The translations under genes were made by a program, and so were the position numbers. 64,000 bases of DNA. Origin: Ensifer sp. IC4062 (GTDB taxonomy: Bacteria; Pseudomonadota; Alphaproteobacteria; Rhizobiales; Rhizobiaceae). The notes beneath the pieces are model-generated. The model did not search any database. It had not been told where the DNA came from and saw only the letters and a list, made by a program, of their open reading frames with translations. Shown in pieces: positions 11,378 to 30,767 of this stretch (the first letter of the stretch is position 1; the number at the start of each line of letters is the position of its first letter). The stretch covers positions 1-64,000 of the forward strand of contig NZ_JADYVD010000025.1 in assembly GCF_020193575.1 (NCBI RefSeq), in the 5' to 3' direction.

Positions 11378-11379
11378 GG

Positions 11380-14608: not shown

Positions 14609-14727
14609 CCGCACATTGCAAGAAATCGCAGCGCCAATCGCGTGAATGGTCTTAAGACTTGGAGCCTCAAGCTATGCGATAGGGCAAGCGGCCCCGCTTA
14701 TGGTGTTCTATTTCACCAGTTGGTTCT

Positions 14728-15390: not shown

Positions 15391-15414
15391 ATCTATGATC
15401 TTGCAAATCTTCTA

Positions 15415-15710: not shown

Positions 15711-15728
15711 AAGAAGGCATCCTCGCTG

Positions 15729-16134
15729 ATGCTTAGGACCCACTGCCAGACCTCGCGCGTCTCGCTTGCCGAGCAGGATCCATACGACAACATCGTCCGC
15801 ACCGCCTTCGAGGCGATGTCGGCGGTGCTCGGCGGCACACAGTCGCTCCACACCAATTCCTTCGACGAGGCGATCGCGCTGCCGATGGATTTCTCCGCCC
15901 GTATCGCCCGCAACACGCAACTGATCCTGCAGCACGAGACCGGCGTCACGAAAGTCGTCGATCCGCTCGCTGGTTCCTATCATGTCGAGAGCCTGACCAA
16001 CGAGCAAAGAGCCTGGGCGCTGATCGCGGAAGGTGAAACGCTGGTGGCATGACCAAGGCGGTCAATGCCGGCCTGCCGAAGCGGCTGTTCGACGCCGTGC
16101 TCCCGGCAAACAGCCTTCCACACCTAAAGGGCAC
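15729..16134 (+). pseudogene. Fragment of methylmalonyl-CoA mutase
   Basis: The frame from 15729 reads [40 protein letters not shown] and [20 protein letters not shown]. This is the highly conserved core of the B12-dependent methylmalonyl-CoA mutase substrate domain. After 16052 a shifted frame continues with [11 protein letters not shown] as in the family and then ends. About 130 of more than 700 residues remain. Together with the pccB and regulator fragments on the other strand it is a relic of a propionate-degradation locus. Confidence 0.8.
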
Positions 16135-16161
16135 TTGAGAATGTCGTATTAGACGACGGTC

Positions 16162-16851
16162 TTACTCTTGAGCCGTGTAGATCCGTCTTGCAAATTCGAT
16201 CCATTCGCCAATGGCGTGATTGCAGAGTTTCGCCAATTCGGTAGGGTCTCCGCTATCGAACACGCCAGTCAAATCACGAATTTCCTTGAGCTGCAGTCGT
16301 GTCGATAGCACCCAATCGAACTCTACAATACTGTAGAAAGTACGACAGGAGCGGTAGTAGCATTCCTCCCATAGTCGCCTAAACTCAGACGATGATATCG
16401 CTTCGAGTATGATCTTCTGTATAGTAATCCCAATGGTAGCATACTGCTGAATGTTACGCTCTTCACTACCAGCGACCGCAACTTTTTCAAGTTCAGATAT
16501 CCGCTGTTTGGCCCTTGGAAAGCATGATGGGTCGACCATTTCGCTCATGAGGAGTGCCATGTGCTTTCGAATTCCAAGCAGTTCCCAAACCTGCTCGTTG
16601 TACACCTCAGTTACGACCGTGCCGACCCCGTTACGGGATTTTACCAATCGAAAAGGTGCAAGCTGTTGAAGTACCTGCCTTATCGGCGTGCGGCTCACGC
16701 CGAACTCCTCTGCCAGTGCCGCTTCACTCAATTTCTGTGACGGTAAGTATCGCAAGCTGCACAGCCGAAGCAGCAACGCGTTTGAAATGTGAAGCGTACT
16801 GACCCGCCGGCCTTCCCGGCCCTTTGAGGTCAAGTGTTTACCGTCCCGCAT
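16162..16851 (-). CDS. GntR-family regulator with FCD-type domain, paralogue
   Basis: This 229-residue regulator is closely similar along most of its length to the one at 13862, including the helix-turn-helix (EEFGVSRTPIRQVLQQL) and the effector half (LWEECYYRSCRTFYSIVE). The ATG at 16851 is used; a TTG lies directly before it. Its upstream region (reverse strand, about 16971 to 16931) shares TTGAGATGA and GCTGTGTA blocks with the control region of the first copy, although the palindrome is imperfect here. No transporter operon is next to it, only fossil genes, so it may act at a distance or on the sites at 6559 and 13774. Confidence 0.85.
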   Translation of the reverse strand: MRDGKHLTSKGREGRRVSTLHISNALLLRLCSLRYLPSQKLSEAALAEEFGVSRTPIRQVLQQLAPFRLVKSRNGVGTVVTEVYNEQVWELLGIRKHMALLMSEMVDPSCFPRAKQRISELEKVAVAGSEERNIQQYATIGITIQKIILEAISSSEFRRLWEECYYRSCRTFYSIVEFDWVLSTRLQLKEIRDLTGVFDSGDPTELAKLCNHAIGEWIEFARRIYTAQE

Positions 16852-16930
16852 CAACAGTTCGCCCTTTCATTTCGCGCGCTGTCTTAGAATGCGGGGTGAT
16901 TGGTGGTTTCCCGCATACTCGCGAGCAACA

Positions 16931-16971
16931 AAAATATTCTACACAGCGGCTATACATGGCTGTCATCTCAA
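16931..16971 (-). promoter_or_regulatory. Diverged copy 3 of the GntR control element
   Basis: Read on the minus strand, this region begins TTGAGATGACAGCC and ends GCTGTGTAGAATATTTTT. It lines up with TTGAGATGATAGCGG and GCTGTGTACAGCTATTTTTT upstream of the first GntR gene. The right half of the palindrome has diverged. It stands about 80 bases upstream of the second GntR gene. Confidence 0.5.
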
Positions 16972-17027
16972 CCGGTTAACCGTGAAAGCTGAGTTGTATT
17001 CCCCTCATCCTGCTCTTGCGAGCTTGC

Positions 17028-17582
17028 TCAATCGTCACTAGGCTGTAAGAGATCGAGGGACAGCACCACCTCAGTGGGATGCCTGATATTGTCGAGCACC
17101 GGACAGCAACGCCCCATGATCTCCAGTAGTTTCGAGATGGCTTCCGGCTCTGCGTCACTGGCAATTTTCACTGTCGCGGAGATCACGGGAAAGCCGGCTC
17201 GAACACTTGCATCCAGTCCGAAGAACCCCTGACTGTTCATTTCTGCTGTCAGTTCCACGCCGATCGACTTCACCTGAATTCCCAAAAAGTCGGCATAGCA
17301 TCTGATCGTCACTTCGATGCTGGCGCCAAGCGCAGCCAACATCGCCTCGGCAGGATTCGGTGCCGTTCCCGTCCCGCCCCAGTTGACCGGTTCATCAATT
17401 GTAAGAGTGAGATGACCGAACTGCGATTCTGAACGTAGTCCGCCCACCTGCTGTGTCCTCCCCGACATTGTTTCGAGGCAGTCACGCGGGTTGCCAGAGG
17501 AAGATGCATCACGGAGCTGGGCAAAGAGGTGCCCTAGCTTCGTTGAGGGTTGTCTGTTATTCATGTCCATATCCACATGCAT
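17028..17582 (-). CDS. OsmC-family protein
   Basis: This 184-residue protein belongs to the OsmC/Ohr superfamily, whose members are thiol-dependent peroxidases active on organic hydroperoxides or related stress proteins. The family pattern GGTGTAPNPAEAMLAALGAS carries the N-terminal part of the active site, and GRCCPVLDNI near residue 160 carries the second, resolving Cys. The stretch before residue 50 is longer than in most members. Three in-frame ATGs (17582, 17570, 17564) are possible starts; the first is reported. It stands alone between the second GntR gene and IS debris. Confidence 0.75.
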   Translation of the reverse strand: MHVDMDMNNRQPSTKLGHLFAQLRDASSSGNPRDCLETMSGRTQQVGGLRSESQFGHLTLTIDEPVNWGGTGTAPNPAEAMLAALGASIEVTIRCYADFLGIQVKSIGVELTAEMNSQGFFGLDASVRAGFPVISATVKIASDAEPEAISKLLEIMGRCCPVLDNIRHPTEVVLSLDLLQPSDD

Positions 17583-18085
17583 GAGGGCGGAATATCCGGT
17601 GAGAGTTGCCGGAGCGAAAGCCTGCTCATGGCTGGAAGCCGGTCAGCTGGTAGCGCCGCGCCGATCGTGTTATACAAGACTCACTTCTTCGAGCTCCACC
17701 CCTGCACCAGTCAGCTAAGAGCAAGCAAATGCTGTGCCAGCGCGGTGGCTAAAGGCAAATGGCGTTGCGCCAACCTGATGCAGGCGTTTGAGGACCGTTG
17801 ATGTTGGGGCGCTTGCGCCAACAATGTCGCGTTTGTTCTTGAGTTGACGGTTATGCAACACGCTCTGCGCTGCGGCGGACAGGGGCAATCCGGCCGTCAA
17901 GTACTGCTCAGCGTCCCGCTGTTCTCGCCGCGCTCTGCGCGGTGAGAACAGCGGACAGTATTCTGTAATGTACGCCCATGAAGGCAATCGGATCACAGGT
18001 CTAGTACCGTGGCTTGATGAATTTGACTCACGGGATTCCGGAATTGGCCAAATCATGCGTCAACATGGCGTAGGGAGATTTTGCC
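17583..18085. other. Non-coding stretch with IS debris and strong hairpin
   Basis: No credible gene is seen. The segment holds the direct repeat CGCTCTGCGC (17861 and 17931), a long hairpin at 17916-17954, and near 18000-18085 the left part of an IS630-like element leading into the transposase fragment. The in-frame stretches here do not resemble proteins. Confidence 0.5.
17916..17954. repeat. Long hairpin with 17-bp stem
   Basis: CCGCTGTTCTCGCCGCG and CGCGGTGAGAACAGCGG face each other across a five-base loop, with one G-T pair in the stem. No T tract follows on either strand. It could be an IS end structure, an orphan terminator or a small palindromic repeat. Confidence 0.5.
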
Positions 18086-18262
18086 GTGGGAACAGCGTTG
18101 GCAATTCGGGAAGACCATATGGCTGATGACCTTCGTCGGCTTGCGAGGCAAAACTGGGGGTGGCGATTGGTCCCGGCGGCGGTTGGCTCTTTCGGTCATT
18201 TATGAGGGTGGGTCGCGCAGTCAGGCTATTGGCGGTGTCGGCTTGCAGATTGTCCGCGACTG
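18086..18262 (+). mobile_element. IS630-family transposase N-terminal fragment
   Basis: One frame reads GTALAIREDHMADDLRRLAR and, after a shift, RRRLALSVIYEGGSRSQAI and GGVGLQIVRDW. These form the N-terminal helix-turn-helix of IS630-type transposases. It is cut off at 18262, where an IS3-type fragment begins in the same open frame, so the apparent 94-residue protein is an accidental fusion of two element remnants. Confidence 0.7.
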
Positions 18263-18264
18263 GG

Positions 18265-18434
18265 CAAAGCCCGCCTTCATCGAAGCTTTCAACGGCCGCT
18301 TCCGGGTGGAATGCCTAAACCAGCACTGGTTCCTGACCTTTGCGGATGCCCGCGAAAAGATGTAGGATTGGTGTAGACATTATAATGAGTTTCGGCCACT
18401 TGGTGAGATCGGCAACCACGTGCTCATCGCGTAA
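18265..18434 (+). mobile_element. IS3-family transposase C-terminal fragment
   Basis: The segments KPAFIEAFNGRFRVECLNQH, WFLTFADAREK, a stop, and HYNEFRPLGEIGN are the end of the rve-type integrase domain of an IS3-family OrfB. The final catalytic Glu region is included but the N-terminal part is missing. It directly follows the IS630 fragment. Confidence 0.75.
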
Positions 18435-18829
18435 TGAATCCGGTAAGCGCAACCAGCCCGCCTCCCTGGATGAAGCCGCAAAACTCTAGCCACCGCCGGT
18501 CCAGAAACCTGGGGCGGTTCAAAGAGGCCATAAGTTTAAACTGACCGGATGTCCAGCAATTGGGAACAGTCAATGTTTGGTGGACACCTCATGCATCAGC
18601 TCACTCAAGACCAAAAGGTGCAGCGAAAATCGCGCTTACGATAGGGCGGTCATTTCGCCGAACGTGATACTCGTAATGTCCAGCTCAAGATCAAGAATAG
18701 CAAGTGCTTTCCGAGGAGGAATGACGAGTGCAGCAGCATTTTTGATAGCCGTCATGTCGGCTTCCGGGCAACATGAACACAGAAACGCTCCGCCTTGCGC
18801 GCCCGGAGGCCAGAACCACGACAACACGA
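18435..18829. other. No gene recognised
   Basis: This stretch lies between the IS3 fragment and the racemase gene. Open frames here (for example minus 18636-18935) overlap the racemase end and show no family features. It probably holds the 3' part of the IS3 remnant followed by unassigned sequence. Confidence 0.4.
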
Positions 18830-19528
18830 TCAAGCAATAGACTGGAGAGTCATCCGGCAGAGGGTTGTGATATCGTATACAGGTAGCCGCGTCATGCGCC
18901 GGATCATCGGCGTGGCTGGCGGAAATAATGTGCATGAAAATAGAAGCGCCGCGATTTCCGGATTTGCGGCGCGGAGGCGCGCGACGCAGGCAGCAATCTC
19001 AGTCTCGATATCCGCGATATCGGTCGGCTGTGGCGGGCACATTGCTTCGTTCTGCATCAACTTTCCGCCTTCGACGCCGCCGATGACGATTCTCGTCCGC
19101 TCAGTCGGGTCACTGAGATGGAGCAAATCTTCTCCGAAAACTCGTGCATCAAGGGTTATGACAGCGAGCTTTGTCGTCGGGGGCAGCTGGCGTAGCAGCA
19201 TCGGCACCAATAGCAGGCTCGACGTCACTACCGGGACATTTACTGCCGCGGCCAGCGCCGCCTGATGCCGAATAGCGGCGCCACAGTACGAGCTGATTGC
19301 GACCGCGCCTCGCTCTACCAGCCGCTGAGCTGCCGCTACGTACGCCGGCTCGAGCGCAGGATCGCCGCGCATTACCACGTCCGCCCAAGCTCCCTCGACG
19401 GTTTCCGATATCACAGGCAAGCCGAAAGTAGCCGAACTCATCATTGAGCCCTGCGGCGGAGTCACACCTGGCGGCGAACCATATTCAAGGTCTAGGATTC
19501 CAAGATAGTTCCCGGTCTGCAACGTCAT
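18830..19528 (-). CDS. Aspartate/glutamate racemase family protein
   Basis: This 232-residue protein has the fold of Asp/Glu/hydantoin racemases, which use two Cys residues to move a proton at the alpha carbon. The candidate catalytic Cys residues are in AISSYCGAAIRHQ and ALLFSCTLFPP. The start at 19528 (MTLQTGNYLGILDLEYG) has a GGAGG site five bases upstream. That site directly abuts the remnant of an IS3-family element (19548-19640), so the original promoter has probably been replaced. Substrate unknown; members include maleate isomerases and hydantoin racemases. Confidence 0.7.
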   Translation of the reverse strand: MTLQTGNYLGILDLEYGSPPGVTPPQGSMMSSATFGLPVISETVEGAWADVVMRGDPALEPAYVAAAQRLVERGAVAISSYCGAAIRHQAALAAAVNVPVVTSSLLLVPMLLRQLPPTTKLAVITLDARVFGEDLLHLSDPTERTRIVIGGVEGGKLMQNEAMCPPQPTDIADIETEIAACVARLRAANPEIAALLFSCTLFPPATPMIRRMTRLPVYDITTLCRMTLQSIA

Positions 19529-19547
19529 TCTGGCCTCCAAAGCTTCT

Positions 19548-19640
19548 GCGCGCCCAAAAACCGCGACGCCTTCATCATTCTCCGCTCCCGTTCCCCGTCA
19601 GAAAATCACACGGAAACTCTAACCAAGACGGTCCAGTTTG
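19548..19640 (-). mobile_element. IS3-family left-end remnant, copy 1
   Basis: On the minus strand the start of an OrfA (MKASRFLGAQK) and the untranslated sequence before it match copy 2 at 27782-27892, whose OrfA starts MKASQFSDAQKAF, the standard opening of one IS3 subgroup. Both copies have the same orientation and bracket the PPTase/EctC-like/NRPS-PKS/SDR block. Confidence 0.65.
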
Positions 19641-19741
19641 GGAGATGAGATCCCGCCATCAGAGCAATCGATGTGCACAATGATACCTTCTTGAAGACTT
19701 CCCAGGCCACTGAGCAGTCGTCGAAGAAGCTTCGCCGGCTG

Positions 19742-20425
19742 CTAGCTTTTTACCGGAGACGGATTTTCGCAAATCTGTCCTACACAATAGCTGAAAACAA
19801 ACTCACCGTTTAACTCAAAGCTTGATTTGATAGCTGGGGCGTCGATGTCGTCCTCATAGGCTTCGATTATAGCGCGCGGAAGAGGTTGGACTCTACGATC
19901 GATCACATCGCTTAGCTTGCGCCCATGGAGCTTTAGCAAAGCTTCAAGTCTAGTCCACTCAATCAGAAAGTCTCTCTTACTCATAAAGGCTCTGCCAAAA
20001 AGATCAAAAGAGAGCTCTTGCGGTTCGATCAAGCGATCCCATCGCTCACAATCGCAGCCGACGAGAGAGATTCTTGAAGCGATGCAGCCGGCTAAACCCT
20101 TTGTATGTGTTATGTTGAAATGGAAGGAATCCTCTAAGGAGGTGAACTGTGGTTTCCCTGAGCCTGGATCGTAGACAATATGCATCCCGGTTACATCATA
20201 GCTGAGGGCTGTTCCGGCGTGATGCAGAGCCGCTCTACCCGCTATAAACTCTGCTCGCCGTTGGGAGCTCTGAAGACCTGCGAGCCAACTTTTATCGCCC
20301 TCTCCCAAAAAATCATCGTATGAACGCTCTGTGATCGCACTCCAGCTTTCGAGCGCGATGACTACTGTCCCCAACCGCAAAACAGCGGGAACAGGAATAT
20401 CTAACGATGGAAAAGAGTATTTCAT
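19742..20425 (-). CDS. Sfp-type 4'-phosphopantetheinyl transferase
   Basis: This 227-residue enzyme moves the phosphopantetheine arm from CoA to a Ser of carrier domains. The family motifs are present in order: RRAEFIAGRAALHHA, SGKPQF, FNITHTKGLAGC, VGCDCERWDR (magnesium-binding acidic residues) and FLIEWTRLEALLKLHGRKL (W-x-x-x-E-x-x-x-K). The start MKYSFPSLDIPVPA at 20425 is chosen over an ATG at 20461, as it matches the usual N-terminal length. It is divergent from the EctC-like and NRPS-PKS genes, whose two carrier domains it very probably activates. Confidence 0.9.
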   Translation of the reverse strand: MKYSFPSLDIPVPAVLRLGTVVIALESWSAITERSYDDFLGEGDKSWLAGLQSSQRRAEFIAGRAALHHAGTALSYDVTGMHIVYDPGSGKPQFTSLEDSFHFNITHTKGLAGCIASRISLVGCDCERWDRLIEPQELSFDLFGRAFMSKRDFLIEWTRLEALLKLHGRKLSDVIDRRVQPLPRAIIEAYEDDIDAPAIKSSFELNGEFVFSYCVGQICENPSPVKS

Positions 20426-20540
20426 AATTCCAACTAAGAACCTGAACGGAGGATTTGCCAACTACCAGCTTTGGTAGTTATCGCACGATAGCACCCTTGG
20501 CTACATTGGAGCGTGCAACCGAACATACGAGGAGCATCGT

Positions 20541-20930
20541 ATGATAATCCGCAAGCTTGAGAGTATCGAGGGGACCGAGCGTGACGTTGCCTGGGGCAAT
20601 GGAAGGAGCCGTCGTTTCTTAGTCAAGGCCGATGGCGTTCCTTATTCGCTCACCGACACCATCGTAAGGGCCGGGACCTCATCCTTGCTGCAGTACCGCC
20701 ATCACATCGAAACCTGCTACTGTATCGCCGGCAAGGGGCGCGTCCGCAACGACATCACCGGTGAAGAGCATGTTATCGTCCCCGGCACAATGTATGCACT
20801 CGACAAGAACGACGCTCACCATCTGATCGCCGACGAGGAAGACCTCCGTCTAGTCTGCATTTTCTTTCCCGCTCTGAACGGCGACGAAGTCCACGACCTA
20901 GCGGCTAAAGAGCTCTCGTCAACCTACTGA
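20541..20930 (+). CDS. Ectoine-synthase (EctC)-like cupin
   Basis: This 129-residue single-domain cupin aligns from end to end with ectoine synthase, which closes N-gamma-acetyl-diaminobutyrate to ectoine by loss of water. The iron ligands of EctC occur at identical positions: Glu57, Tyr85 and His93 (GTMYALDKNDAHH). Ser23, Arg25, Thr40 and Tyr52 also match. Trp21 and Asn38 of the ectoine pocket are Gly and Thr here. There is no ectA or ectB in the window. The gene has a GAGGAGC site, lies 20 bases before the NRPS-PKS gene and is surely co-transcribed with it. The likely role is a ring-closing dehydration in that pathway, which is an inference. Confidence 0.8.
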   Translation: MIIRKLESIEGTERDVAWGNGRSRRFLVKADGVPYSLTDTIVRAGTSSLLQYRHHIETCYCIAGKGRVRNDITGEEHVIVPGTMYALDKNDAHHLIADEEDLRLVCIFFPALNGDEVHDLAAKELSSTY

Positions 20931-20950
20931 TAGCAGAAGGACGGGACATC

Positions 20951-23900
20951 ATGACAAATGCGACTGAGACCGGACACATGCCGCTTGCCGCACGCTGCCG
21001 CACTGTGTCGCAGGAGTTCATAGAGTGCGCACATAAATTTCCCCACATGATTGCAGTTCAGTGCGGTGACGAGCGCCTGACGTACAGGGAGCTATTGGGT
21101 CATGCCTCGCGCGTTGCGCAACAGCTTATAATGCACGGAGTTTGCGTCGGAGACATCATCTTGATGAATCCTGCGCGTCACCTCGATTCGGCAATCATCA
21201 TCATCGGGGTTATGCTTAGCGGAGCGACAGTGTGTCCGCTCGACATGGGAGCGAGCGAGACGAGAATCCGGAACATCTTAGCGGCTTCCCGGACAAAATT
21301 CGTCGTTCTTACAGACAAGACCCCGGTTGATGCGAAAGCGTCGCAGCTCCTGCAGTCCTTCTGCATTGACACGATTCTTGTCGAGCGACGATTAAGCGAC
21401 GAGATTTCCAACGTTGAGAACCTTTCGACTCCTGAAAGGGGCTGTTACCTGCTTTTCACCTCTGGGACGACAGGAACGCCCAAGGGCGTGCTCATGCCAC
21501 ACCGTGGGCTTGCCAACCTGATTCAATGGGATATCCGCTTCAGGGGATGTGAACCTGGCACGACTCACTTGCAATTCGCGTCCTTCAATTTCGACGTCGC
21601 ATTTCACGAACTGTTTTCGGCCATCAGTTCAGGAGGAACGGCAGTTCTGGCTACGCAGGATCAGCGACAGGACGCTGGACTACTCCTGGAACTGCTCTCA
21701 TCATGCCGCATCAAGAAAGCATATCTCCCCTACAGTGTACTCAATCAACTGGCGCTGGCGGCGCGGGCATTCGCTGAGCCACTTTACCTCACAGACGTAA
21801 CGACGGCCGGCGAGCCACTGAAGATCACTGAACAAATCAGATCACTATTCAATCGCCTCGGCGCCACCCTCTACAACAACTATGGTTCGACTGAGGTGCA
21901 GGACGTGACGTCTCTGAGGCTCGCCGGAGACCCCGAGAGATGGCCGGATCTACCATCGATCGGCGCTCCCATAGCGGGAATGGAGGTGGGCGTGCTCACC
22001 TCTAAGGGGGTCACGTCGGAACCGGGCTCTGAGGGCCCAATTGTGGTCAAGGGGTGTCAGGTCGCGATGGGCTACATTCAGTCTGGTGTCGACGATCCAT
22101 TGCCCCTCCCTTCTGCCTCGACAGGTTCAGCAGACGAGTACCTAACGGGGGATCTCGGCATCATCCTTCCTGACGGCAACATCGCCATCGCTGGGCGGGC
22201 CGATCGGGAGGTCAAGATCCGCGGCAAGCGGGTCGATGTCGCCGCCGTTGAGTCCGTTATGGAGCGTTCTCGGTACGTTAACCAAGCTGCCGTCGTCGCA
22301 ACCGAGATCAGCGGGCGATCAGAACTAATCGCCTTCGTAATCTCGGCAGAAGACTCAAAGAGTGATGTGCTCAAGGAGGATATCAGAACCCTGATCACTG
22401 ATGCGTTAGATGGAACCGCGGTTCCGTGCCAGACCTACACACTCTCGGCGTTTCCCGAAACGACTACAGGCAAGATTGACCGTCGCGCCCTCCAGTCAAT
22501 GGCGGCCTCCGCCGTTAGGGCACCGGCTCGTGATGGTGGTCAGCGGAATAATGTCCAGCGGCGCGGGTCAGACATCTGGAATGAGGTCCTTCCCGGGGGG
22601 GACGGTCGGAGCTTCAGAGCGGCAGGCGGCGACTCGCTGAGCGCGATGCAACTTGTGACGCGCTTGAAGCAGGAATTAAAAGTCGAAGTTTACGTGTCCG
22701 ATATCTCAAATGAGACCACACTGGAATCGCTCCTCAGGACTGCAAAGCTCCGTGGGGATCTCGGCGAAAACGAAGCGACTTTTACAACTTCTTTGAGGCG
22801 AAATGCAGTCGCCATCATCGGAATGGCTGGACGCTTCCCAGGCGCCGACTCCGTCGATGCTCTATGGGAAGGACTCATCAATAATCAGATCTTCTTTTCC
22901 GAATCCAAGAACGACCCGCCGGCTCTATCCATGTGTGAGAACTTTGTGAGGACGGGTGGTTTCCTTGAGCACCACGACCATTTTGACGCCGAATTCTTCG
23001 GCATCAGTGATCGCGAAGCTGCGCTGATGGATCCGCAGCAACGGATTTTTCTTGAGTGCTCATGGCACGCTCTCGAAAACGCAGGTTATGCGCCGACGGC
23101 GGTTCCTTACCGGACGGGTGTGTATTCGGCGAGCGGCGCGAGCACGTATCTGATCAACAATATCTTGCCATCAGTGATAGATGAATGCGGCGGCGCCTTT
23201 TTGAGCCATCGGCTCATTCGGAATGTCGGTGAAATTTTGATTGAACAGGGCAACTCTCCAGAGCACGTTTCGATGAGGGTGTCGAACAAGCTCAATCTGA
23301 CGGGTCCCAGTCTCTCAGTAGGTTCCGCCTGTTCAGGTGGGTTGGTCGCCGTTCATCATGCGGTACAGGCAATCCGCTTAGGAGAAGCCGATATGGCGAT
23401 CGCCGGCGGCGTTTCAGTTTCAACGCCGCAGCATGTAGGCTACTTTGCGCATGAAGGTGTAATCCTGTCACCAACCGGTTGCTGCAGACCGTTCGATGCG
23501 GCGGCCGACGGATCAGTGTTCGGGAACGGATGCGCGGTTCTCGTCCTCAAAGATTATGATCTCGCGGTTCGCGATGGCGATCAGATCATCGCGGTTATTG
23601 TCGGGTCAGCGGTCAATAACGACGGTGCGCGTAAACTGAGTTATACCGGACCGAGCGTGGAGGGGCAAATCGATGTCATCAACGCAGCTCTGGCAGATGC
23701 CGGTCTCACCGCATCCGACATCGACTACGTCGAGGCCCATGGGACAGGCACACCCCTCGGGGACTCGATTGAGATTACAGCTCTGGCGGCAACATATGGC
23801 GCAGCTGCCATCGCTCAAAACTGCCTTGTTGGATCCCTGAAGGCGAATATCGGGCACCTCGACGAGGCGGCAGGTGCCGCGGGCCTTCTGAAAACGGCTC

Positions 23901-26713
23901 TATGTCTTCAAAGGGGCAGGATTCCAGCCATTCCGACGTTTCGGAGCCCACATGAGCGGATGCCGCTGCGGGAAACCCGCCTGAGAATTGCCTGTGGGGA
24001 GGCTCAGGACTGGAATTATCGATTGGAGAGACCCAGGCGAGCAGCAATCAGTTCCTTGGGGATAGGAGGGACGAATTGCCACATGATCCTCGAGGGTGGG
24101 GACGCTCGTGCGGGAAGAGCGCAGATAGCTCGCGATCCTCAGCAAAATGAACTCTTTGTGCTGTCGGCGGGTAGCTCCGAGCAGTTGATGACTCTGTGCC
24201 GGGAGGTCCACGAACTCCTCGCTGCCTCCGGAACAGATCTCCGCTTGCGGGATGTATGCATGACCTCCTGCGTTGGGCGTCGCCCGGAACGGTTCCGGGT
24301 TGGTTGGACAGTGTCCAGCAAGGCTGAATTGTCCCAACTGCTCAACGATGTTGTCGTGGGGGCATCATCCCCCTCCGACAGTTTAGCCCCAAAGAAGATT
24401 GCTGGCCTCTTCACTGGTCAGGGCTGCCAGTGGACAGGAATGGGGAAAGAGCTTTCTGCCGCGTTTCCTGCCTTCAGAGAGTCGATGGAAGATTGTTTCG
24501 AGTGCGTACGGAGGAGTCATGGGATCGAACTCAAACAGGTGATCGAAGAAATACCCGATCGAGATCCAAGGCTAAATCGCACCGAGTTCACGCAACCGGC
24601 GATCTTCGCGTTCGAATACGCAATGACCCAGCTTCTTCGTTCTTTTGGGGTGCAGTTTGAGGAGATAGCGGGTCATAGCTTCGGGGAGATAGCGGGCCTG
24701 GTCGCCGCCGGTGCGCTACCCTTAGAAGATGCGTGCTTTCTTGTTTCTGAGCGGGGACGACTTTCCGCGGAACTTCCAACCGGAATGGGTGCAATGGCCG
24801 TGGCCACCGGGAACGCAGAAGATATTGCTCTTCTCGTCTCCGAGCTGGGCGATGGTGTTACCGTGGCGGCATTCAACTCACCGAACGCAGTCGTACTATC
24901 CGGTTGTGCTGACCTCGTGGCAAAACTCGCTGATACTGGAGAGGTCTCGGGCTGTACGGTCACTCAGCTGCCAATATCGCATGCGTTCCACTCAGAGCAG
25001 ATGTGCCCCATCGTTGATAAATACAGGTCCGTCATCGCGAAACTGCGCTTTTGCGACCCGATAATTCCGGTGGTCTCCTCGGTAACAGGAGCACCTCTTC
25101 AAGAAAATCAGGATTGGGTCAAGTACCTCACAGATCAACTTGTGGGACCGGTTCGCTTCCATGATGTGCTTCACTATATGCTTGACGACCGTTCGAAGCT
25201 ATTTGTCGAGGTCGGACCGAAGCCGATGCTGCTCGGGCTCGGTATGGACCTTGACCCGGAAGAGGGTAGGCCCTGGATTGCTTCTTGCCGTAGCTCCGAC
25301 GAGTTAGGGACATTCCTCAGAGCCCTCGCCGAGCTGTTTAAACTTGGCATAAACCTCGACTTCAACCACCTCGCTCATCGCGGCGCGTGGCGCCGTGTCT
25401 CCCTGCCCACCTATCCGTTCCGCAAGACTCAGTATCTCTGTGCTCCACCGCTTGCCGCGACAAAACGCGCATCAGATGGAACATCTCCTCTCGGTGATGT
25501 TTCTAAGGTTGTCGCTCGCTCCAGAGACAATGCTTTATCTCAACAGTCTCTAGATTGTGGCCGCGCTGAACCTTCCAATAAGCTAGCTGCTAGTTCCAAA
25601 CCGTTGAACATCAAGCCGACGATAGGTCCTGATCCAGAGAAATCCGAAGCGGTTCGTAGGATTGTCGCGCCATCCGGAGAGTATCAGGCCTATCAGTCTG
25701 AAGAGAAAGTTCTTTGGGACGTGCTTGAGCGGATTGCTGCGCTTCTTGGCAAACGAAGTGTTTCTACCGTCGATCCGGACCTAAAATGGAACGATCTTGG
25801 CTTGGATTCGCTGCTTCTCATCGAGTTACGAAACAACTTGAGAAAGTGCTACGGCAACTCTATCTCCATGACAATGTTTATGAAATGTCAGACGCCTCGC
25901 AGTTTGGCAAACGGAATTTATGAGGTTGCCGGTTTTGCGCAATCCGGTACCGAAGCGCGCGCATCTAAGCATGCTCGGCTTCTCCTAATACCTGGTATTA
26001 CGGGAGAACCAATGGACTTTGTGGAACTTATTCCTTTGCTTGGGGGCATCTCCACGGAAGTACTTGAGTACCCACAGGGCATCGACCCTTGGCGAAGCGC
26101 TCCTACGCCGATGGATGTTATCTCCTCTATCACCAGTCAAGCAAAGAAGGCGGCAGGTGAGGATAACGTGGTTTTGCTTGGCTATTCCTTTGGAGGTAAA
26201 GTCGCGAACGAGGTAGGCCTTGCGCTCCTTCGACTAGGCACCGACGTCAGTCGTGTGATCATTATAGATGTTCCCCCAGGCGCTTTCTTGCCAGTGGCGC
26301 CCAAGGGGTCAATCGCTCGACCGTTGGGTCGAATGGAATTCGGAATGATGTTGAAAAAAGATCCTGCGAAGGCATTCAATGTGTTGGATCTTGCATGTCA
26401 CAGCAATAAACTTGAGGCAGATTTCAGGCGCACCGCTTCAATTTACTGGACGAACGCTTTGATCGCCTCTCAATTTGAGGCAAGCAAGACATCCATTCCT
26501 CTAATATTTATACGGGCACGAGTAGCCGGAGCGCTTGATAACCTTTTGGCCGACGAAAGTCTATCTGCCGCCGATCCAACTTGGGGTTGGAAGACAGTTG
26601 CGAGCACCGTGGATGTTCATATCGTTGATGGAGATCATTTCAGCATCATGGAGCATGACAAAGTCTCTCAAATAGCTGATCTTGTAAAACGCCAATTTCT
26701 TGTCAGCTCTTGA
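20951..26713 (+). CDS. Hybrid NRPS-PKS, A-PCP-KS-AT-ACP-TE
   Basis: This 1920-residue assembly line has six domains. They are adenylation (1-515; FTSGTTGTPKG near 168, YNNYGSTE near 308, TGKIDRRAL near 507), peptidyl carrier (GGDSLSA, Ser562), and ketosynthase (618-1040; Cys794, His930, His969). Acyltransferase (about 1150-1440; GHSFGE with Ser1243, HAFH at 1344), acyl carrier (LGLDSLL, Ser1620) and thioesterase (1655-1915; GYSFGG with Ser1746, His1896) follow. HAFH points to malonyl-CoA. No condensation, ketoreductase, dehydratase or methyltransferase domain is present. The predicted action is to load one amino acid, extend it once with malonate and release a beta-keto product. The start has an AGAAGGA site. 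Substrate of the A domain is not predictable by eye. Confidence 0.92.
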   Translation: MTNATETGHMPLAARCRTVSQEFIECAHKFPHMIAVQCGDERLTYRELLGHASRVAQQLIMHGVCVGDIILMNPARHLDSAIIIIGVMLSGATVCPLDMGASETRIRNILAASRTKFVVLTDKTPVDAKASQLLQSFCIDTILVERRLSDEISNVENLSTPERGCYLLFTSGTTGTPKGVLMPHRGLANLIQWDIRFRGCEPGTTHLQFASFNFDVAFHELFSAISSGGTAVLATQDQRQDAGLLLELLSSCRIKKAYLPYSVLNQLALAARAFAEPLYLTDVTTAGEPLKITEQIRSLFNRLGATLYNNYGSTEVQDVTSLRLAGDPERWPDLPSIGAPIAGMEVGVLTSKGVTSEPGSEGPIVVKGCQVAMGYIQSGVDDPLPLPSASTGSADEYLTGDLGIILPDGNIAIAGRADREVKIRGKRVDVAAVESVMERSRYVNQAAVVATEISGRSELIAFVISAEDSKSDVLKEDIRTLITDALDGTAVPCQTYTLSAFPETTTGKIDRRALQSMAASAVRAPARDGGQRNNVQRRGSDIWNEVLPGGDGRSFRAAGGDSLSAMQLVTRLKQELKVEVYVSDISNETTLESLLRTAKLRGDLGENEATFTTSLRRNAVAIIGMAGRFPGADSVDALWEGLINNQIFFSESKNDPPALSMCENFVRTGGFLEHHDHFDAEFFGISDREAALMDPQQRIFLECSWHALENAGYAPTAVPYRTGVYSASGASTYLINNILPSVIDECGGAFLSHRLIRNVGEILIEQGNSPEHVSMRVSNKLNLTGPSLSVGSACSGGLVAVHHAVQAIRLGEADMAIAGGVSVSTPQHVGYFAHEGVILSPTGCCRPFDAAADGSVFGNGCAVLVLKDYDLAVRDGDQIIAVIVGSAVNNDGARKLSYTGPSVEGQIDVINAALADAGLTASDIDYVEAHGTGTPLGDSIEITALAATYGAAAIAQNCLVGSLKANIGHLDEAAGAAGLLKTALCLQRGRIPAIPTFRSPHERMPLRETRLRIACGEAQDWNYRLERPRRAAISSLGIGGTNCHMILEGGDARAGRAQIARDPQQNELFVLSAGSSEQLMTLCREVHELLAASGTDLRLRDVCMTSCVGRRPERFRVGWTVSSKAELSQLLNDVVVGASSPSDSLAPKKIAGLFTGQGCQWTGMGKELSAAFPAFRESMEDCFECVRRSHGIELKQVIEEIPDRDPRLNRTEFTQPAIFAFEYAMTQLLRSFGVQFEEIAGHSFGEIAGLVAAGALPLEDACFLVSERGRLSAELPTGMGAMAVATGNAEDIALLVSELGDGVTVAAFNSPNAVVLSGCADLVAKLADTGEVSGCTVTQLPISHAFHSEQMCPIVDKYRSVIAKLRFCDPIIPVVSSVTGAPLQENQDWVKYLTDQLVGPVRFHDVLHYMLDDRSKLFVEVGPKPMLLGLGMDLDPEEGRPWIASCRSSDELGTFLRALAELFKLGINLDFNHLAHRGAWRRVSLPTYPFRKTQYLCAPPLAATKRASDGTSPLGDVSKVVARSRDNALSQQSLDCGRAEPSNKLAASSKPLNIKPTIGPDPEKSEAVRRIVAPSGEYQAYQSEEKVLWDVLERIAALLGKRSVSTVDPDLKWNDLGLDSLLLIELRNNLRKCYGNSISMTMFMKCQTPRSLANGIYEVAGFAQSGTEARASKHARLLLIPGITGEPMDFVELIPLLGGISTEVLEYPQGIDPWRSAPTPMDVISSITSQAKKAAGEDNVVLLGYSFGGKVANEVGLALLRLGTDVSRVIIIDVPPGAFLPVAPKGSIARPLGRMEFGMMLKKDPAKAFNVLDLACHSNKLEADFRRTASIYWTNALIASQFEASKTSIPLIFIRARVAGALDNLLADESLSAADPTWGWKTVASTVDVHIVDGDHFSIMEHDKVSQIADLVKRQFLVSS

Positions 26714-26840
26714 GAATTGTGCAGGGATCCCCTTCGTCGGGTAAGAACAAGAGCTATGCAAAATCGTTACGTTAGGGTCGAATCAAGGATGAAGCGAGTT
26801 TGTTCATGTCTCTCGCGGCGTGTGACCCAAGTGGATAACC

Positions 26841-26867
26841 GTGACAGCAGGTTAGCTGCTGTTTTCA
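26841..26867 (+). terminator. Hairpin with T run behind the NRPS-PKS gene
   Basis: ACAGCAG and CTGCTGT form a seven-base stem followed by TTT, about 130 bases past the NRPS-PKS stop. It may end the ectC-like/NRPS-PKS transcript. The rest of 26714-27001 shows no gene. Confidence 0.4.
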
Positions 26868-27001
26868 CATCCAGTCAGCTCGGCAACATCCAACGGCAGC
26901 GGTGGCCAAGCCGAGGATCATCAAAAGCCCAGGATCGACGGGGGGTTCTTCGATATTCCACCTGATGAAGACAGATTGATCCGACGCTAAAGGAAAACAC
27001 C

Positions 27002-27790
27002 ATGACCAAAGTGGCAATTGTGACAGGATCGGCAACGGGTATGGGTGCGACTTGTGCCATCGACCTCGCTGCTCGAGGCTGGAACGTCACGATAAACTAC
27101 AGCCGAAGTAAGAAGGAAGCCGACGAGACTTATGCCAAAGTCAAAGCGCAAGGTGTTGAAGCCATCGTTGTGCAAGCCGACGTGGGGCAGGAGGCAGATT
27201 GCCGAAAGCTGGCCGCCGAGACCCTGAGCGAATGGGGGCGCATAGACGGCCTTATCAATAACGCTGCCACCACAAAGTTCCAAAAAGCGGGCGACCTTGA
27301 AGACGTCACACCAGAGGATTTCGACCGCCTATTTCGCGTGAACGCCACAGGCGCTTTCATGATGAGCCGTGCTGTGTTTTCGGTCATGAGAAAACAATGG
27401 GAGGAAAGCAAAGAACGCGGTGCGATCGTGAATGTGTCTAGCAATGCCACCCTTACCGGCAACGGCAGCTCGCTGCCCTACGTGCTGTCCAAGGGCGCGC
27501 TAAATACTCTTACCCCCATGCTTGCACGTTGGCTGAGCCCCGCCGTTCGTGTGAACACCGTTTGCCCTGGCTTCATCCAAACCCGCTGGATCCGAAACGG
27601 CATCGGTGAAAGTGAATACAATAAAATGATATACGACGAGGAACAGCGTACGCCTCTACGCCAGGCAGGCACGCCGGAACAGATGTCTGAGGCTGCGCTG
27701 TTCCTTTTAACGGAAGCGTCAAACATTACTGGTCAGATCATTGTTGTTGATGCTGGCGACCATCTGGGTCCGCCGCCTAGGCGATGTTGA
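27002..27790 (+). CDS. Short-chain dehydrogenase/reductase
   Basis: This 262-residue NAD(P)-dependent SDR oxidoreductase has the cofactor motif TGSATGMGA, the NNA motif (LINNAATTKFQ), the catalytic Ser in VNVSSNATLTG and the YVLSK motif with Tyr and Lys. GQIIVVDAGDHLG is the usual C-terminal pattern. The last few residues (PPPRRC) run into the IS3 remnant that begins at about 27782, so the original end may have been replaced. It has an AAAGGAAA site and lies 288 bases behind the NRPS-PKS gene in the same orientation. It may reduce the beta-keto product, since the PKS lacks a ketoreductase; this is inference. Confidence 0.85.
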   Translation: MTKVAIVTGSATGMGATCAIDLAARGWNVTINYSRSKKEADETYAKVKAQGVEAIVVQADVGQEADCRKLAAETLSEWGRIDGLINNAATTKFQKAGDLEDVTPEDFDRLFRVNATGAFMMSRAVFSVMRKQWEESKERGAIVNVSSNATLTGNGSSLPYVLSKGALNTLTPMLARWLSPAVRVNTVCPGFIQTRWIRNGIGESEYNKMIYDEEQRTPLRQAGTPEQMSEAALFLLTEASNITGQIIVVDAGDHLGPPPRRC

Positions 27791-27892
27791 ACGCTTTCTG
27801 CGCGTCCGAAAACTGCGATGCCTTCATCGTCCTCCGTTCTTTTCCCAGCCAGGAAATTTACCCTAAAACTCGAACCAAAACCGCCCAGTTTG
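27782..27892 (-). mobile_element. IS3-family left-end remnant, copy 2
   Basis: The minus strand carries the start of an IS3-family OrfA (MKASQFSDAQKAF, ATG at 27827) and the leader sequence before it. It is a diverged direct repeat of 19548-19640. The element is cut off after 14 codons, at the end of the SDR gene. Confidence 0.65.
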
Positions 27893-27899
27893 AAGGTCC

Positions 27900-28063
27900 A
27901 CCAGCACGCGGCCACGGGAAAAAAGGGGATGGAGACGATGGCGGCATCGGACGTTCCCCCGAGCACCGGAACGACCAAGGCAAAGCACCCATGGGCCAAT
28001 GGCCAAGTCGAGAGGATGAACAGAACCAGCAAGGACGCGACCGTCAGGCGCTTCGCAGAACGG
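27900..28063 (+). mobile_element. IS481-type transposase fragment
   Basis: The segment KHPWANGQVERMNRTSKDAT, followed by VRRF, is the conserved end of the rve catalytic core, with the third acidic residue in GQVERMN, of IS481-type transposases. Both sides are lost. It abuts the cut end of the IS66 gene. Confidence 0.7.
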
Positions 28064-28079
28064 ACACACGGCCAACCCA

Positions 28080-28760
28080 GTCCGCCATGACAGGCCGGGA
28101 GATGTCTATTCCCAGGCGGTCGCACATCTCGGAGAGACGGTAGAGCGGGACGTGATCGTCGAACTCGGCGACCATGATATGCGCGAGCAACCCCGGACCG
28201 GGCTTGCCTCGCTCGATCGGCAAGGTCGGCATCTCACCCGATACGGTCGTATCGCAGTCCCTGCAGACCATGCGCTTCTCGACATGCCGGACAATCTTCA
28301 CAGAAGCCGGCACATGCTCCATCACCTCGACCACCTTGTCGGCCGCCTTCAGGAAGGACATGCCACCACAAGTCGGGCAACTGCAGGGCGCCGTGTACAC
28401 CCGCTCTTCAGTTGGAAGGCCATCCGGCAGAGGTCTGCGTTTCGGCTTGTCGGGGGCATCATCCAGATCTGGCAGCAGGCCTTTTCCGGAACGAGCATCA
28501 GCCTCGGCGCGAGAGGTTTCGATTTCCTCGAGCATCAGTTCGAATTGCTCAATCTTCCGATCGATCTTTTCCGAGGATGCGCCGTGCTGCCGATGTCGCA
28601 GCAGTTCCAGCTGCGCGCGCAGAAGACCGATGATCGAGTCGCGTTTGTTGACTTCGGCTTCTTGCGCACTGAGTTTCGCCGCCTGTTCAGCGACGAGCGC
28701 GCGCAATGCCAATAGCTCGTCCTGACTGTCCAGCGGCGGTGCTTTCATGCCCAAAAACAT
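28080..28760 (-). mobile_element. IS66 TnpC N-terminal fragment
   Basis: This frame of about 225 residues is the front of the IS66 transposase TnpC. It has the leucine-zipper-like start ALVAEQAAKLSAQEAEVNKR, the RHRQHGASSEKID motif, the zinc-finger pair CSCPTCGG and CRDCD, and PIERGKPGPGLLAHIM at the front of the catalytic domain. The catalytic DDE part is missing beyond about 28080, where the IS481 fragment begins. Confidence 0.85.
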
Positions 28761-28799
28761 AGCCGATTTGCCGCGGAAGCACTAGCGTTTTGCCCCGGA

Positions 28800-28985
28800 T
28801 GTCCCTGTAAAATATATAGCTTTTGACCCGTGCGGCCAGGGGCGGAAGTCCACGCTGGTCGGCGCCAGTCAATCCCTTCAACAAGCATCAACAACTGAGC
28901 CTGCATCAAATGCGCAACACCATCTTTCGCCGTCGGCCAAGGAAAGTATCCGCGCTCGAGAATCTTGTAGAATAGGCAGAACCCT
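28800..28985 (-). mobile_element. IS66 TnpB C-terminal fragment
   Basis: On the minus strand a frame reads GDGQGFCLFYKILERGYFPW, PTAKDGVAHLMQAQLLML and EGIDWRRPAWTS. This is the conserved C terminus of IS66 accessory protein TnpB, in the correct position before tnpC. The N-terminal part is lost at the junction with the IS5 remnant. Confidence 0.75.
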
Positions 28986-28996
28986 TGGCCATCCCC

Positions 28997-29225
28997 AGCA
29001 ATTCCTCCAGCCCCTGCGGCCCGATCCGCTTGCGCCAGCGCGTCATCGTGCTCGCGTCGATCGGAGCTTCATGCGGGAAGAACTCAAAGCCGCTCAGCTA
29101 CATCACCGACGATTTCCGGCAGTTTCCAATACTTCAAAACAGATGGGAATCCCTTATACGCAGGGCGTTGAGAGGTTTTTCAGCGTCGACCAAAGATCTA
29201 GCGCCGCCGACGCTGGTGTGGGGAG
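28997..29225 (-). mobile_element. IS5-family element, internally deleted copy
   Basis: The segment 28998-29095 is nearly identical to 31794-31892, and 29096-29220 to 32180-32280, so this is a deletion form of the IS5-family element at 31440-32280, lacking its middle part. It ends about 20 bases from the stop of the ATP-grasp gene. Confidence 0.75.
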
Positions 29226-29246
29226 TTGAGGGGTCGCAAACTGTTG

Positions 29247-30479
29247 CTACTCGCTGACGGTCGGAAATGGAGCGATCGACCAATCGACTAAGTCGGCAGC
29301 ATCATGGAGTATCGCCGCTGTCCGAGCACCGCTGGGTGAAGCGGCGATGACATGTCCTAAACAGTCTCGGTAATCACCTTTCCTGACGATCGGCGTCTTG
29401 GGTCCCTTGTAAAATTTGACCTCGACGACACCTGATACAGCAGCCGCCCTACTGTCGCTACCGATCCACTCAAGAATGCCATCGCGATCAGGAACTAGGT
29501 ACCGCACGGCAGCAGTGTGCGAGCGCGTCCTGCGCAAATTCCATTCTTCGCCAATGACGAGCTTTATGTGCTCGTTGACGAGATCGATACCGTGCGCCAA
29601 CTGCACGAGGTGAGGATCCTCACCTGCAAGACGCGGATTGACTTCGATCACGACCGGACCATGTTTCGTCCACCGAATTTCAATGTTCGCCGGCCCCCAG
29701 TCGAGGCCGAGCGCTCGCACACAGTTTTGCGAAATATCGGCGATATCCTTATACTCCTGATCAGCCAACATGGCCGGATAGGTGAACTCACGATAGACGA
29801 AATGCGGCGGGGGACCGAAGTCATTCCCCGTGACTCCAATGATCTGATTGCTCATTATATGAGATTGGTAGCTCGGTCCCGGTGCGAATTCTTCGACAAG
29901 TAACCTCGGCGACGACTGCCATTTGTGCCCCCCACTCAACAGATTAGTCGCATGTTCTGATACTTCTTCGACGTTGCGGCACAATCGGACACCGCTACTG
30001 CCGCTGCCTATGGTTGGCTTGACGATAACCGGTAGGCCGATCTCCGCGGCAATTTCCTTTGTTTCAGTCGCGTCAGCTGTCAAGCGGTAAACGGGCATTG
30101 GAATGTCTGTCTCCGCGAGGCGCTGACGTTGAGTGAATTTGTCGCAACATTGTTCAATCGATGCGGGATTTGGCCCCGGTAGACCGAAATGCCGGCAGAG
30201 CTTAGCGACTGTCACGTAGAGCGACTCATCGAGGCCCGTGAAACCGGTGATACCGCCAATGTCGTATCTCGCACTTAGCTGAGAACATTCCCGGATGATC
30301 GCTTCGAGATCATCTGTGTCGACGCGGACCACCTCAAGTTCTTCCGACGCTAGATAGTCGTAATTACTTGGATCAGCCGAGAAGGTTATTGGGTGAAGAC
30401 CAAGACGCTTGGCCGCTTGAATATATAATGGGCCGTTATGCCTATGGCCCTCAACTAGGATAAGCGCTCTTTTTAGCAT
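29247..30479 (-). CDS. ATP-grasp carboxylate-amine ligase
   Basis: This 410-residue enzyme has the ATP-grasp fold, which joins a carboxylate to an amine or another nucleophile through an acyl phosphate. The visible landmarks are the pre-ATP-grasp start ALILVEGHRHNGP, GLPVIVKPTIGSGSSGVRLC (phosphate-binding loop), LLVEEFAPGPSYQS, and VVIEVNPRLAGEDPHLVQLA (magnesium ligands E and N). It resembles L-amino acid ligase and biotin-carboxylase-like members used in peptide and antibiotic synthesis. It is intact, although both sides are IS debris. It may belong to the NRPS-PKS locus, joining its acid product to an amine. A broken gene overlaps its start. Confidence 0.8.
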   Translation of the reverse strand: MLKRALILVEGHRHNGPLYIQAAKRLGLHPITFSADPSNYDYLASEELEVVRVDTDDLEAIIRECSQLSARYDIGGITGFTGLDESLYVTVAKLCRHFGLPGPNPASIEQCCDKFTQRQRLAETDIPMPVYRLTADATETKEIAAEIGLPVIVKPTIGSGSSGVRLCRNVEEVSEHATNLLSGGHKWQSSPRLLVEEFAPGPSYQSHIMSNQIIGVTGNDFGPPPHFVYREFTYPAMLADQEYKDIADISQNCVRALGLDWGPANIEIRWTKHGPVVIEVNPRLAGEDPHLVQLAHGIDLVNEHIKLVIGEEWNLRRTRSHTAAVRYLVPDRDGILEWIGSDSRAAAVSGVVEVKFYKGPKTPIVRKGDYRDCLGHVIAASPSGARTAAILHDAADLVDWSIAPFPTVSE

Positions 30480-30694: not shown

Positions 30695-30767
30695 AGCCTA
30701 ACGCATCGAAGCGGTTAAAACCCGCTTCACCCCTCTTCTAGGCAAGAGGTGTGCCAGTAAGATACGT

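Follow-up and report, generated by a model that had tools for sequence, protein, structure and literature searches.

What does a homolog of the ectoine synthase EctC do directly in front of a hybrid nonribosomal peptide synthetase-polyketide synthase (NRPS-PKS)? The question is raised by a small locus of Ensifer sp. IC4062 (GCF_020193575.1), located at positions 19742 to 26713 of a stretch of 64,000 nucleotides from contig NZ_JADYVD010000025.1, here called the window. It is possible, at a probability that we place just below even, that the EctC homolog, one of a class with a WGNG motif, makes a proline-like cyclic amidine, most likely 5-amino-dihydropyrrole-2-carboxylate (ADPC) from glutamine, which the adenylation (A) domain of the NRPS-PKS loads and to which one malonate is added. 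ADPC is proline with an amidine at C5, and EctC closes a ring through water loss between an amine and an amide. We infer the ring size and the glutamine substrate; a passage of PMC6344544, citing Witt 2011, states that the EctC of H. elongata forms ADPC from glutamine as a side reaction. The genes of the locus, and the domains of the NRPS-PKS with their Pfam matches in residues, are as follows.

20951..26713, + strand, NRPS-PKS of 1920 amino acids (aa), assigned by Pfam domains, active-site motifs, and relatives
20541..20930, + strand, EctC homolog of 129 aa, WGNG class (PF06339, 3e-41; PDB 5onm, 1.7e-29; class and tree)
19742..20461, - strand, protein resembling phosphopantetheinyl transferases (PPTases), with open frames in five relatives
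20461..20478, no strand, 18-bp palindrome ACTACC-N6-GGTAGT between the PPTase and EctC genes, probable operator
21023-22474, + strand, A domain (AMP-binding, 25-375; AMP-binding_C, 433-508)
22634-22636, + strand, codon of Ser562 of the peptidyl carrier protein (PCP), located by motif
22802-23932, + strand, ketosynthase (KS; ketoacyl-synt, 618-870, and its C-terminal part, 881-994)
24407-25234, + strand, acyltransferase (AT; Acyl_transf_1, 1153-1428)
25721-25912, + strand, acyl carrier protein (ACP; the better of two PP-binding matches, 1591-1654)
25979-26695, + strand, thioesterase (TE; Thioesterase, 1677-1915)

The open reading frames for the PPTase, EctC, and NRPS-PKS all lie where a preliminary description of this DNA had placed them; 20 bases separate the stop codon of EctC from the NRPS-PKS start, and the PPTase-like gene is divergent from both. 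The domain order A-PCP-KS-AT-ACP-TE on one chain was borne out by Pfam and by active-site residues assigned by motif (PCP Ser562; KS Cys794, His930, and His969; AT Ser1243 with SHAFH; ACP Ser1620; TE Ser1746 and His1896). The lack of condensation and ketoreductase (KR) domains also held, since neither PF00668 nor PF08659 had a match in the 1920-aa protein at an E value of ≤1e-3. The same is true of the proposed use of one amino acid and one malonate, which agrees with the HAFH of the AT, a malonyl-type motif, and of release by a TE with its Ser and His in place. The term "minimal" suits the window protein but not its relative in Rhizobium gallicum, which is 2556 aa long and carries dehydratase (DH) and KR domains between AT and ACP. 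Active KRs have Tyr and Asn in their catalytic motif; the R. gallicum KR has QALHAAAC at that place and seems to lack the catalytic Tyr, and the R. gallicum synthase therefore probably also retains its keto group. In the window, a linker of ~80 to 100 residues occupies the site of the R. gallicum DH-KR and is consistent with a trace of a lost, dead DH-KR. The call of an Sfp-type PPTase stood in part: the gene is a divergent partner with relatives of 40 to 79% identity at five other places, but the family assignment is weak (4PPT_N at 23.1 bits against a Pfam cutoff of 27 bits; NCBIfam AcpT/HetI matches far under cutoff). Its true start may be the ATG near 20425.

The NRPS-PKS is rare: a sample of 394 genomes of the family contained relatives (E ≤ 1e-300) in 3, and 33 genomes of the genus contained them in 5, the genome of strain IC4062 itself being included in both counts. 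A single scan of genome contigs gave one locus, that of Ensifer sp. LCM 4579, and the sixth locus is on plasmid pRgalIE4872a of R. gallicum. Identity to the window protein is 87% in LCM 4579 and 62% in S. terangae; in R. gallicum it is 76% over residues 33 to 1508 and 52% over residues 1529 to 1918. Loss of the pairing with EctC, which the preliminary description regarded as telling against it, proved partial. EctC lies directly upstream in the window, in LCM 4579 (95% identity), and in R. gallicum (81%), which a passage of PMC5924519 names as the holder of an orphan ectC, perhaps this gene. No EctC is found between the PPTase and the NRPS-PKS of S. terangae and genome G1144, and an EctC of another subclass (46%) is located upstream of them, at 6.3 and 3.1 kb, respectively. 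In genome G1139 the contig ends ~600 bases upstream of the NRPS-PKS, and a separate contig encodes an EctC of 78% identity next to a PPTase and an A-domain remnant of 52 residues. A broken EctC (77 to 80% identical to that of the window), the remnant of a further copy, was also seen beside another EctC in G1144 (contig C61, locus L138, 5899-6230). A conjugative plasmid carries the S. terangae locus, and the closest nif-type gene (fdxB, followed by nifX and nifN) lies ~16 kb away; in strain IC4062 and in LCM 4579, nifH is on contigs other than that of the locus.

The EctC homolog scores far above the curated cutoff for its family (PF06339, 141.1 against 27 bits) and above that of the NCBIfam ectoine synthase model (149.5 against 128 bits). 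It retains the iron ligands Glu57, Tyr85, and His93, which are given in part of PMC6344544 as Glu57, Tyr84, and His92 for the EctC of P. lautus. That part of the same source reports Trp21 as fully conserved in EctC from ect clusters and a Trp shifted by two in some orphans; the window protein has Gly at 21 and Trp at 18 and so lacks the Trp21 of the ect-cluster proteins. An alignment of EctCs from the loci fetched by that stage (73 matches, 68 aligned rows) contained 35 rows with Trp at 21, 32 with Trp at 18 in a WGNG-like motif, and one, L028, with neither. In a tree of 69 rows and 135 columns, many forks of which are weak (five identical, near-identical, or partial rows were dropped and six were added, one of them a duplicate), the Trp21 rows and L028 formed one clade of 36 rows with support of 100/98. 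The window EctC fell into a clade of eight rows (98/89) with those of LCM 4579, R. etli, R. gallicum, Mycetohabitans, Nonomuraea, and two Streptomyces. A change of Asn38 to Thr was considered as a mark of a new substrate and rejected, because Trp21 proteins also have His or Thr there. The genome of strain IC4062 encodes an EctC paralog on contig C90, with no NRPS in the 9976 bases examined and only acetyl-CoA-synthetase-like genes near it.

The two classes also differ in their neighbors. EctB at ≥35% identity was found near none of 31 WGNG loci, many of them longer stretches, compared with 18 of 35 loci of the other class (34 with Trp21, and L028). Aminotransferases in five WGNG stretches matched the EctB probe at 25 to 30%, and positions 11001 to 31000 of the window held no EctB at ≥35%; EctA was not searched for. 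The substrate of the WGNG enzymes may therefore come from general metabolism. These counts argue against a reading in which an acylated diamino acid is the substrate of EctC and its product, ectoine or a different six-membered cyclic amidine, is loaded by the A domain. That the family makes ectoine speaks for such a product, as does a statement in part of PMC5924519 that an orphan EctC of P. syringae produced ectoine in another host. The A domains, however, are closest to those for a five-membered ring, as described below, and we consider a six-membered ring improbable.

The partners of WGNG EctC at other loci vary. In Mycetohabitans endofungorum the EctC gene is followed by one for an NRPS beginning with an A domain; short condensation-domain and formyltransferase pieces before this EctC (L008, 8009-8780; by annotation) look like remnants of a longer NRPS start. 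In R. jaguaris, Paraburkholderia sabiae, and genome G427 an NRPS is encoded ~1 to 4 kb away. Elsewhere WGNG EctC occurs with a stand-alone ligase, a carrier, and an acyl-CoA dehydrogenase, mostly together with a transglutaminase-like protein. These dehydrogenase sets were recognized by annotation in Streptomyces xanthii, S. sp. NBC_00209, S. globosus, and Aliiroseovarius crassostreae and by similarity (ligase and dehydrogenase; the carrier was not probed) in Nonomuraea and genomes G441 and G763. Some of them also contain KS genes; the S. globosus stretch and the Mycetohabitans NRPS have no KS in the stretch seen. An ATP-grasp ligase is the partner in R. etli, S. meliloti, and R. leguminosarum and, at some 7 kb, in genome G029; in A. 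vitis the adenylating enzyme near EctC is of a different type.

Kinship of the A domains points to a proline-type substrate. The best solved matches of the A4-A5 fragment were the same two proteins for the window (gramicidin S synthase 2, 2.1e-9; tyrocidine synthase 2, 5.3e-9; next match, 3.2e-4), for the first A domain (A1) of Mycetohabitans (1.9e-17 and 8.9e-17; next, 2.2e-7), and for A1 of R. jaguaris (1e-12 and 2.8e-10; next, 8.7e-6). The solved domains, 8p5o of gramicidin S synthase 2 and 9bfd_B of tyrocidine synthase 2, are proline activating. For the whole window A domain, tyrocidine synthase 2 was the best single-stretch match (1.6e-61); linear gramicidin synthase rows rank above it through the summing of two domains. 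The ligase beside EctC in Aliiroseovarius matched the L-proline ligase 6o6e best (1.2e-17), closely followed by the D-alanine ligase DltA (1.1e-16). As a control, A domains were scored against nine reference fragments, covering the NRPS parts within the fetched stretches and leaving out a partial A match of G427 that was dropped by the length filter. A proline reference scored best for all eight NRPS A domains near a WGNG EctC, four of which belong to the NRPS-PKS family (including S. terangae, with its EctC 6.3 kb away), and in no case for the four further A domains of these NRPSs. Four of the five dehydrogenase-set ligases scored (those of S. xanthii and G763 were left out) were best with 6o6e; the A. 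vitis enzyme (L018) was best with 6o6e at a low score, and the enzyme at locus L080 of genome G194 had no good match.

The binding-pocket letters are less clear than kinship: the specificity code, which the preliminary description proposed to predict, differs from that of the proline references. Positions 235, 236, 239, 299, 301, 322, 330, and 331 were compared; 278, where the alignment is ambiguous, was left out. The letters are D V H T A N D V in the window and LCM 4579, D I H T A N D V in R. gallicum, D I H T S N D V in S. terangae, and D I H I A H D V in Mycetohabitans A1; the proline references have D V Q I A H V V and the R. jaguaris type has D V Q Y A Q V I/V. Relative to the proline references, the window thus has His for Gln239, Thr for Ile299, Asn for His322, and Asp for Val330. 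Matches to the proline letters number 4 of 8 in the window, 2 in S. terangae, 5 in Mycetohabitans A1, 5 to 6 in the R. jaguaris type, and 1 to 4 in unlinked modules. Other modules of these NRPSs gave codes for Thr, Ser, and Phe, and the pocket extraction therefore works. Position 330 holds Asp in each of the six NRPS-PKS loci, Mycetohabitans A1, and seven of seven dehydrogenase-set ligases, whereas the proline references have Val; Asp330 may be the place for a cationic amidine.

The preliminary description let EctC act last, closing a ring on the released keto product. In the form considered here, proline or another ordinary cyclic amino acid would be loaded and extended with malonate, and EctC would condense the amine with the keto or amide group after release. 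An A domain nearest to proline-activating domains would suit this order of events, the EctC gene adjoins that for the NRPS-PKS, and EctC-type cyclodehydration is chemically apt for ring closure. However, proline plus malonate would leave EctC without a free primary amine, Asp at 330 is unexpected for proline, and EctCs of the same class occur near proline-type ligases in different-looking gene sets, some without a KS in the stretch seen. These EctCs recur near proline-type enzymes in differing pathways, which suggests that the pathways have an amino acid in common and not a product; action after release is thus less likely, and we consider it a minor possibility.

We hypothesize instead that EctC acts first. 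Dehydration of an amino acid by EctC would yield a cyclic amidine with a five-membered ring, ADPC (5-iminoproline) from glutamine being the likeliest; the A domain, of proline-activating descent, would load this proline analogue onto the PCP, with both carriers primed by the divergent PPTase; and the KS and AT would add one malonyl unit with retention of the beta-keto group. The TE could release a beta-keto acid, possibly then decarboxylated, or, alternatively, release could occur through attack of the ring nitrogen, giving a bicyclic, tetramate-like pyrrolizidine amidine, or through closure onto the amidine nitrogen. A short-chain dehydrogenase/reductase (SDR) encoded downstream might reduce the ketone afterwards. 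The product would presumably be a small alkaloid-like metabolite. ADPC as the substrate would explain the occurrence of EctC near proline-type ligases, the acid at position 330, and why EctB was not found nearby.

In the dehydrogenase sets the ADPC unit might instead be oxidized to 2-aminopyrrole; oxidation of proline to pyrrole is known chemistry. EctC, a proline-type ligase, a carrier, and an acyl-CoA dehydrogenase are encoded together at L010, L088, and L089 on Streptomyces plasmids and at L019 in Aliiroseovarius. The S. xanthii and NBC_00209 sets also encode, by annotation, relatives of TrpA, phosphoribosylanthranilate (PRA) isomerase, and indole-3-glycerol phosphate (IGP) synthase, with a TrpD-like Glycos_transf_3 protein in S. 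xanthii as well. If the ligase loads ADPC, oxidation could give an aminopyrrole that the Trp-like enzymes treat as anthranilate, leading to a pyrrole analogue of indole.

Several observations weigh against a cyclic amidine made by EctC. By themselves the pocket letters do not indicate proline, and the case for it rests on kinship: an unlinked Phe-type module matches 4 of 8 proline letters, as many as the window. One dehydrogenase-set ligase scores best with DltA (165 to 162). The A domains of R. jaguaris, P. sabiae, and G427 retain Val at 330, and because of this the substrate of the R. jaguaris type might be proline itself. EctC directly precedes the NRPS-PKS in only three of six loci. By the probes used or by annotation, neither an adenylating enzyme nor an ATP-grasp ligase accompanies several of the WGNG EctCs (those of R. 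phaseoli N841, Gloeothece, G128, G314, G727, G582, and G947, the second one of G029, and one on a short G449 contig). Finally, because the P. syringae protein made ectoine, orphan EctCs may, by analogy, still use N-gamma-acetyl-diaminobutyrate.

An 18-bp palindrome, ACTACC-N6-GGTAGT, lies between the PPTase gene and EctC or the NRPS-PKS in five of the six loci, with no mismatch in the window, LCM 4579, and S. terangae, one in G1144, and two in R. gallicum. In G1139 it occurs with two mismatches at the EctC-PPTase pair, and none was found on the NRPS-PKS contig. With at most one mismatch, the whole genomes of LCM 4579 and S. terangae contain it at two places each, none of them outside these loci: the second place in LCM 4579 is 170 bases before a GntR gene homologous to the GntR-family regulators of the window, and those in S. 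terangae are before the NRPS-PKS and 608 bases before the distant EctC. Strain IC4062 has eight such places, one in this locus, one before a second ATP-grasp gene (see below), and six elsewhere, of which five (not that on contig C120) were inspected and showed no link. A control pattern read backward gave 54, 34, and 48 matches in the three genomes. Palindromes with at most two mismatches were found in 9 of 38 upstream stretches; that of the R. etli EctC has a three-mismatch match, which was not counted, since shuffles gave one in 11 of 50 cases. No copy with up to three mismatches lies near the ATP-grasp, GntR, SDR, OsmC, and racemase genes of the window. Because 0.68 matches with up to three mismatches are expected by chance in the window, where an exact match was observed, the case rests on recurrence and rarity; from these, the palindrome is probably the operator of the cluster.

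The palindrome also bears on whether EctC is connected with the NRPS-PKS at all, as it might be a neighbor left from another locus on an unstable plasmid and biochemically unlinked. Transposase-like remnants and gene fragments surround the cluster, and S. terangae has no adjacent EctC, as would fit such a leftover. Against this, in S. terangae one copy of the palindrome precedes the NRPS-PKS and another the distant EctC, and proline-type enzymes recur near WGNG EctCs in Mycetohabitans, rhizobia, Paraburkholderia, Streptomyces, Nonomuraea, and Aliiroseovarius. We regard an unlinked EctC as very unlikely.

A broader and more speculative proposal, which we hold with somewhat less confidence than that for the window itself, is that the WGNG EctCs are dedicated glutamine cyclodehydratases (ADPC synthases) feeding proline-type enzymes in alpha- and betaproteobacteria and actinomycetes, so that what is a side reaction in ectoine synthase would be their principal one. 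One branch in rhizobia would supply the A-PCP-KS-AT-ACP-TE synthase and lead to a new family of bicyclic amidine alkaloids; a palindromic operator of its own would control it, and in S. terangae it would be encoded on a nif-carrying plasmid. Control of the cluster by NifA or sigma-54 was considered and rejected, as no -24/-12 match (at most two mismatches) lies between the PPTase and EctC genes. Sigma-54 matches in the window number 32 against 31.4 expected and NifA boxes 11 against 7.5. The sole exact sigma-54 match among the 32, a total at chance level, is a perfect consensus, TGGCAC-N5-TTGCT, at 17724-17739 (- strand), ~140 bases before an OsmC-like gene at 17028-17582.

Three further genes near the locus may be connected with it.

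27002..27790, + strand, SDR oxidoreductase (adh_short_C2, 2e-53; 94% identity at the same place in LCM 4579)
29247..30479, - strand, ATP-grasp ligase with an L-amino acid ligase C-terminal domain, candidate partner only
18830..19540, - strand, Asp/Glu racemase-superfamily protein, with a match in LCM 4579 only

The SDR gene, which the preliminary description overlooked, is 288 bases downstream of the NRPS-PKS on the same strand and is possibly the trans reductase of the cluster; no match was present in the R. gallicum and S. terangae stretches. The ATP-grasp ligase has relatives in the EctC stretches of R. gallicum, R. etli, and S. meliloti and none in that of LCM 4579. A second ATP-grasp ligase, 62% identical to the window copy, is encoded on contig C134 of strain IC4062 (L098, 15690-16946), with the palindrome 336 bp upstream and two further palindromes on that contig. 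Membership of the racemase-superfamily gene in the cluster is uncertain.

More distant parts of the window provide additional observations. Positions 36-13833 encode an agmatinase, an amidase, an MfnA-like decarboxylase, an M20 hydrolase resembling DoeB2, an ABC transporter, and a truncated DoeA-like protein, and this set, partly syntenic in LCM 4579, might break down an amidine or guanidine compound. A rhizopine-like system with the M20 enzyme, agmatinase, amidase, decarboxylase, and truncated DoeA-like protein as catabolic partners was considered; the genes are present, and it stays an idea because M20 enzymes are common and the synteny is with a close relative. Two related GntR-family regulators are encoded at 13778-14608 (+) and 16162-16854 (-), and a 107-aa gene remnant at 15729-16052 (+) matches a portion of the methylmalonyl-CoA mutase region on the R. 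gallicum plasmid at 84% identity. At 32281-34110 (-) and 36758-38011 (-), a PEP_hydrolase domain fused to a sigma-54 activator domain and a Fis-type helix-turn-helix is encoded near a UPF0261 (Tm-1-like) gene; the fusion looks like an enzyme-like sensor joined to a transcription activator.

If the ADPC proposal is true, EctC could serve in genome mining to locate natural products that contain an amidine, rhizobial plasmids would be credited with a new metabolite, and the name ectoine synthase would be wrong for many of the genes that now bear it. Parts of PMC5924519, PMC6344544, and PMC3979721 state that what solitary or orphan EctC proteins do is unresolved, and in a passage of PMC8776678 the matter stays open for two acetic acid bacteria; the present locus, with its relatives, makes the question testable, concretely and cheaply. 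Among the titles and starts of abstracts listed, with most subscription journals outside the search, no described pathway with this gene set was found, as the preliminary description had supposed, and no report of an EctC class tied to proline-type adenylation. What appears to be new is that an EctC class of its own goes together with proline-type adenylation. Anthelvencin, kikumycin, and noformicin reportedly contain an ADPC unit, and an earlier proposal of an EctC-like ADPC synthase in the literature is therefore possible.

Those three compounds are said to be amides without malonate extension, and the anthelvencin cluster is said to use an ATP-grasp ligase. Compared with the solved EctC (PF06339; 5onm and 5bxx), the window protein agrees in family, length, Glu57/Tyr85/His93, Tyr52, Thr40, Arg25, and Ser23; it differs in the change of Trp21 to Gly with Trp at 18 (the WGNG motif), in having Gln at 51, where Trp is frequent in the Trp21 class, and in its place outside the Trp21 clade with no EctB found nearby. 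The M. endofungorum locus (NZ_CP062179.1) likewise has an EctC, 61% identical, directly before an A-first NRPS, whose A domain is 37% identical to that of the window with five of eight pocket letters in common, including His239 and Asp330; that NRPS differs in having condensation domains and no KS-AT module in the 2924 residues seen. Hybrids of the outline of the window protein are known in kind, and a plasmid-encoded protein of Burkholderia glumae has A, PCP, KS, AT, DH, and KR domains. For the adenylating domains near WGNG EctC, the nearest solved relatives are the A domains 8p5o (gramicidin S synthase 2) and 9bfd (tyrocidine synthase 2) and the proline ligases 6o6e and 7thn; unlike these, the A domain of the window is followed by KS-AT-ACP-TE.

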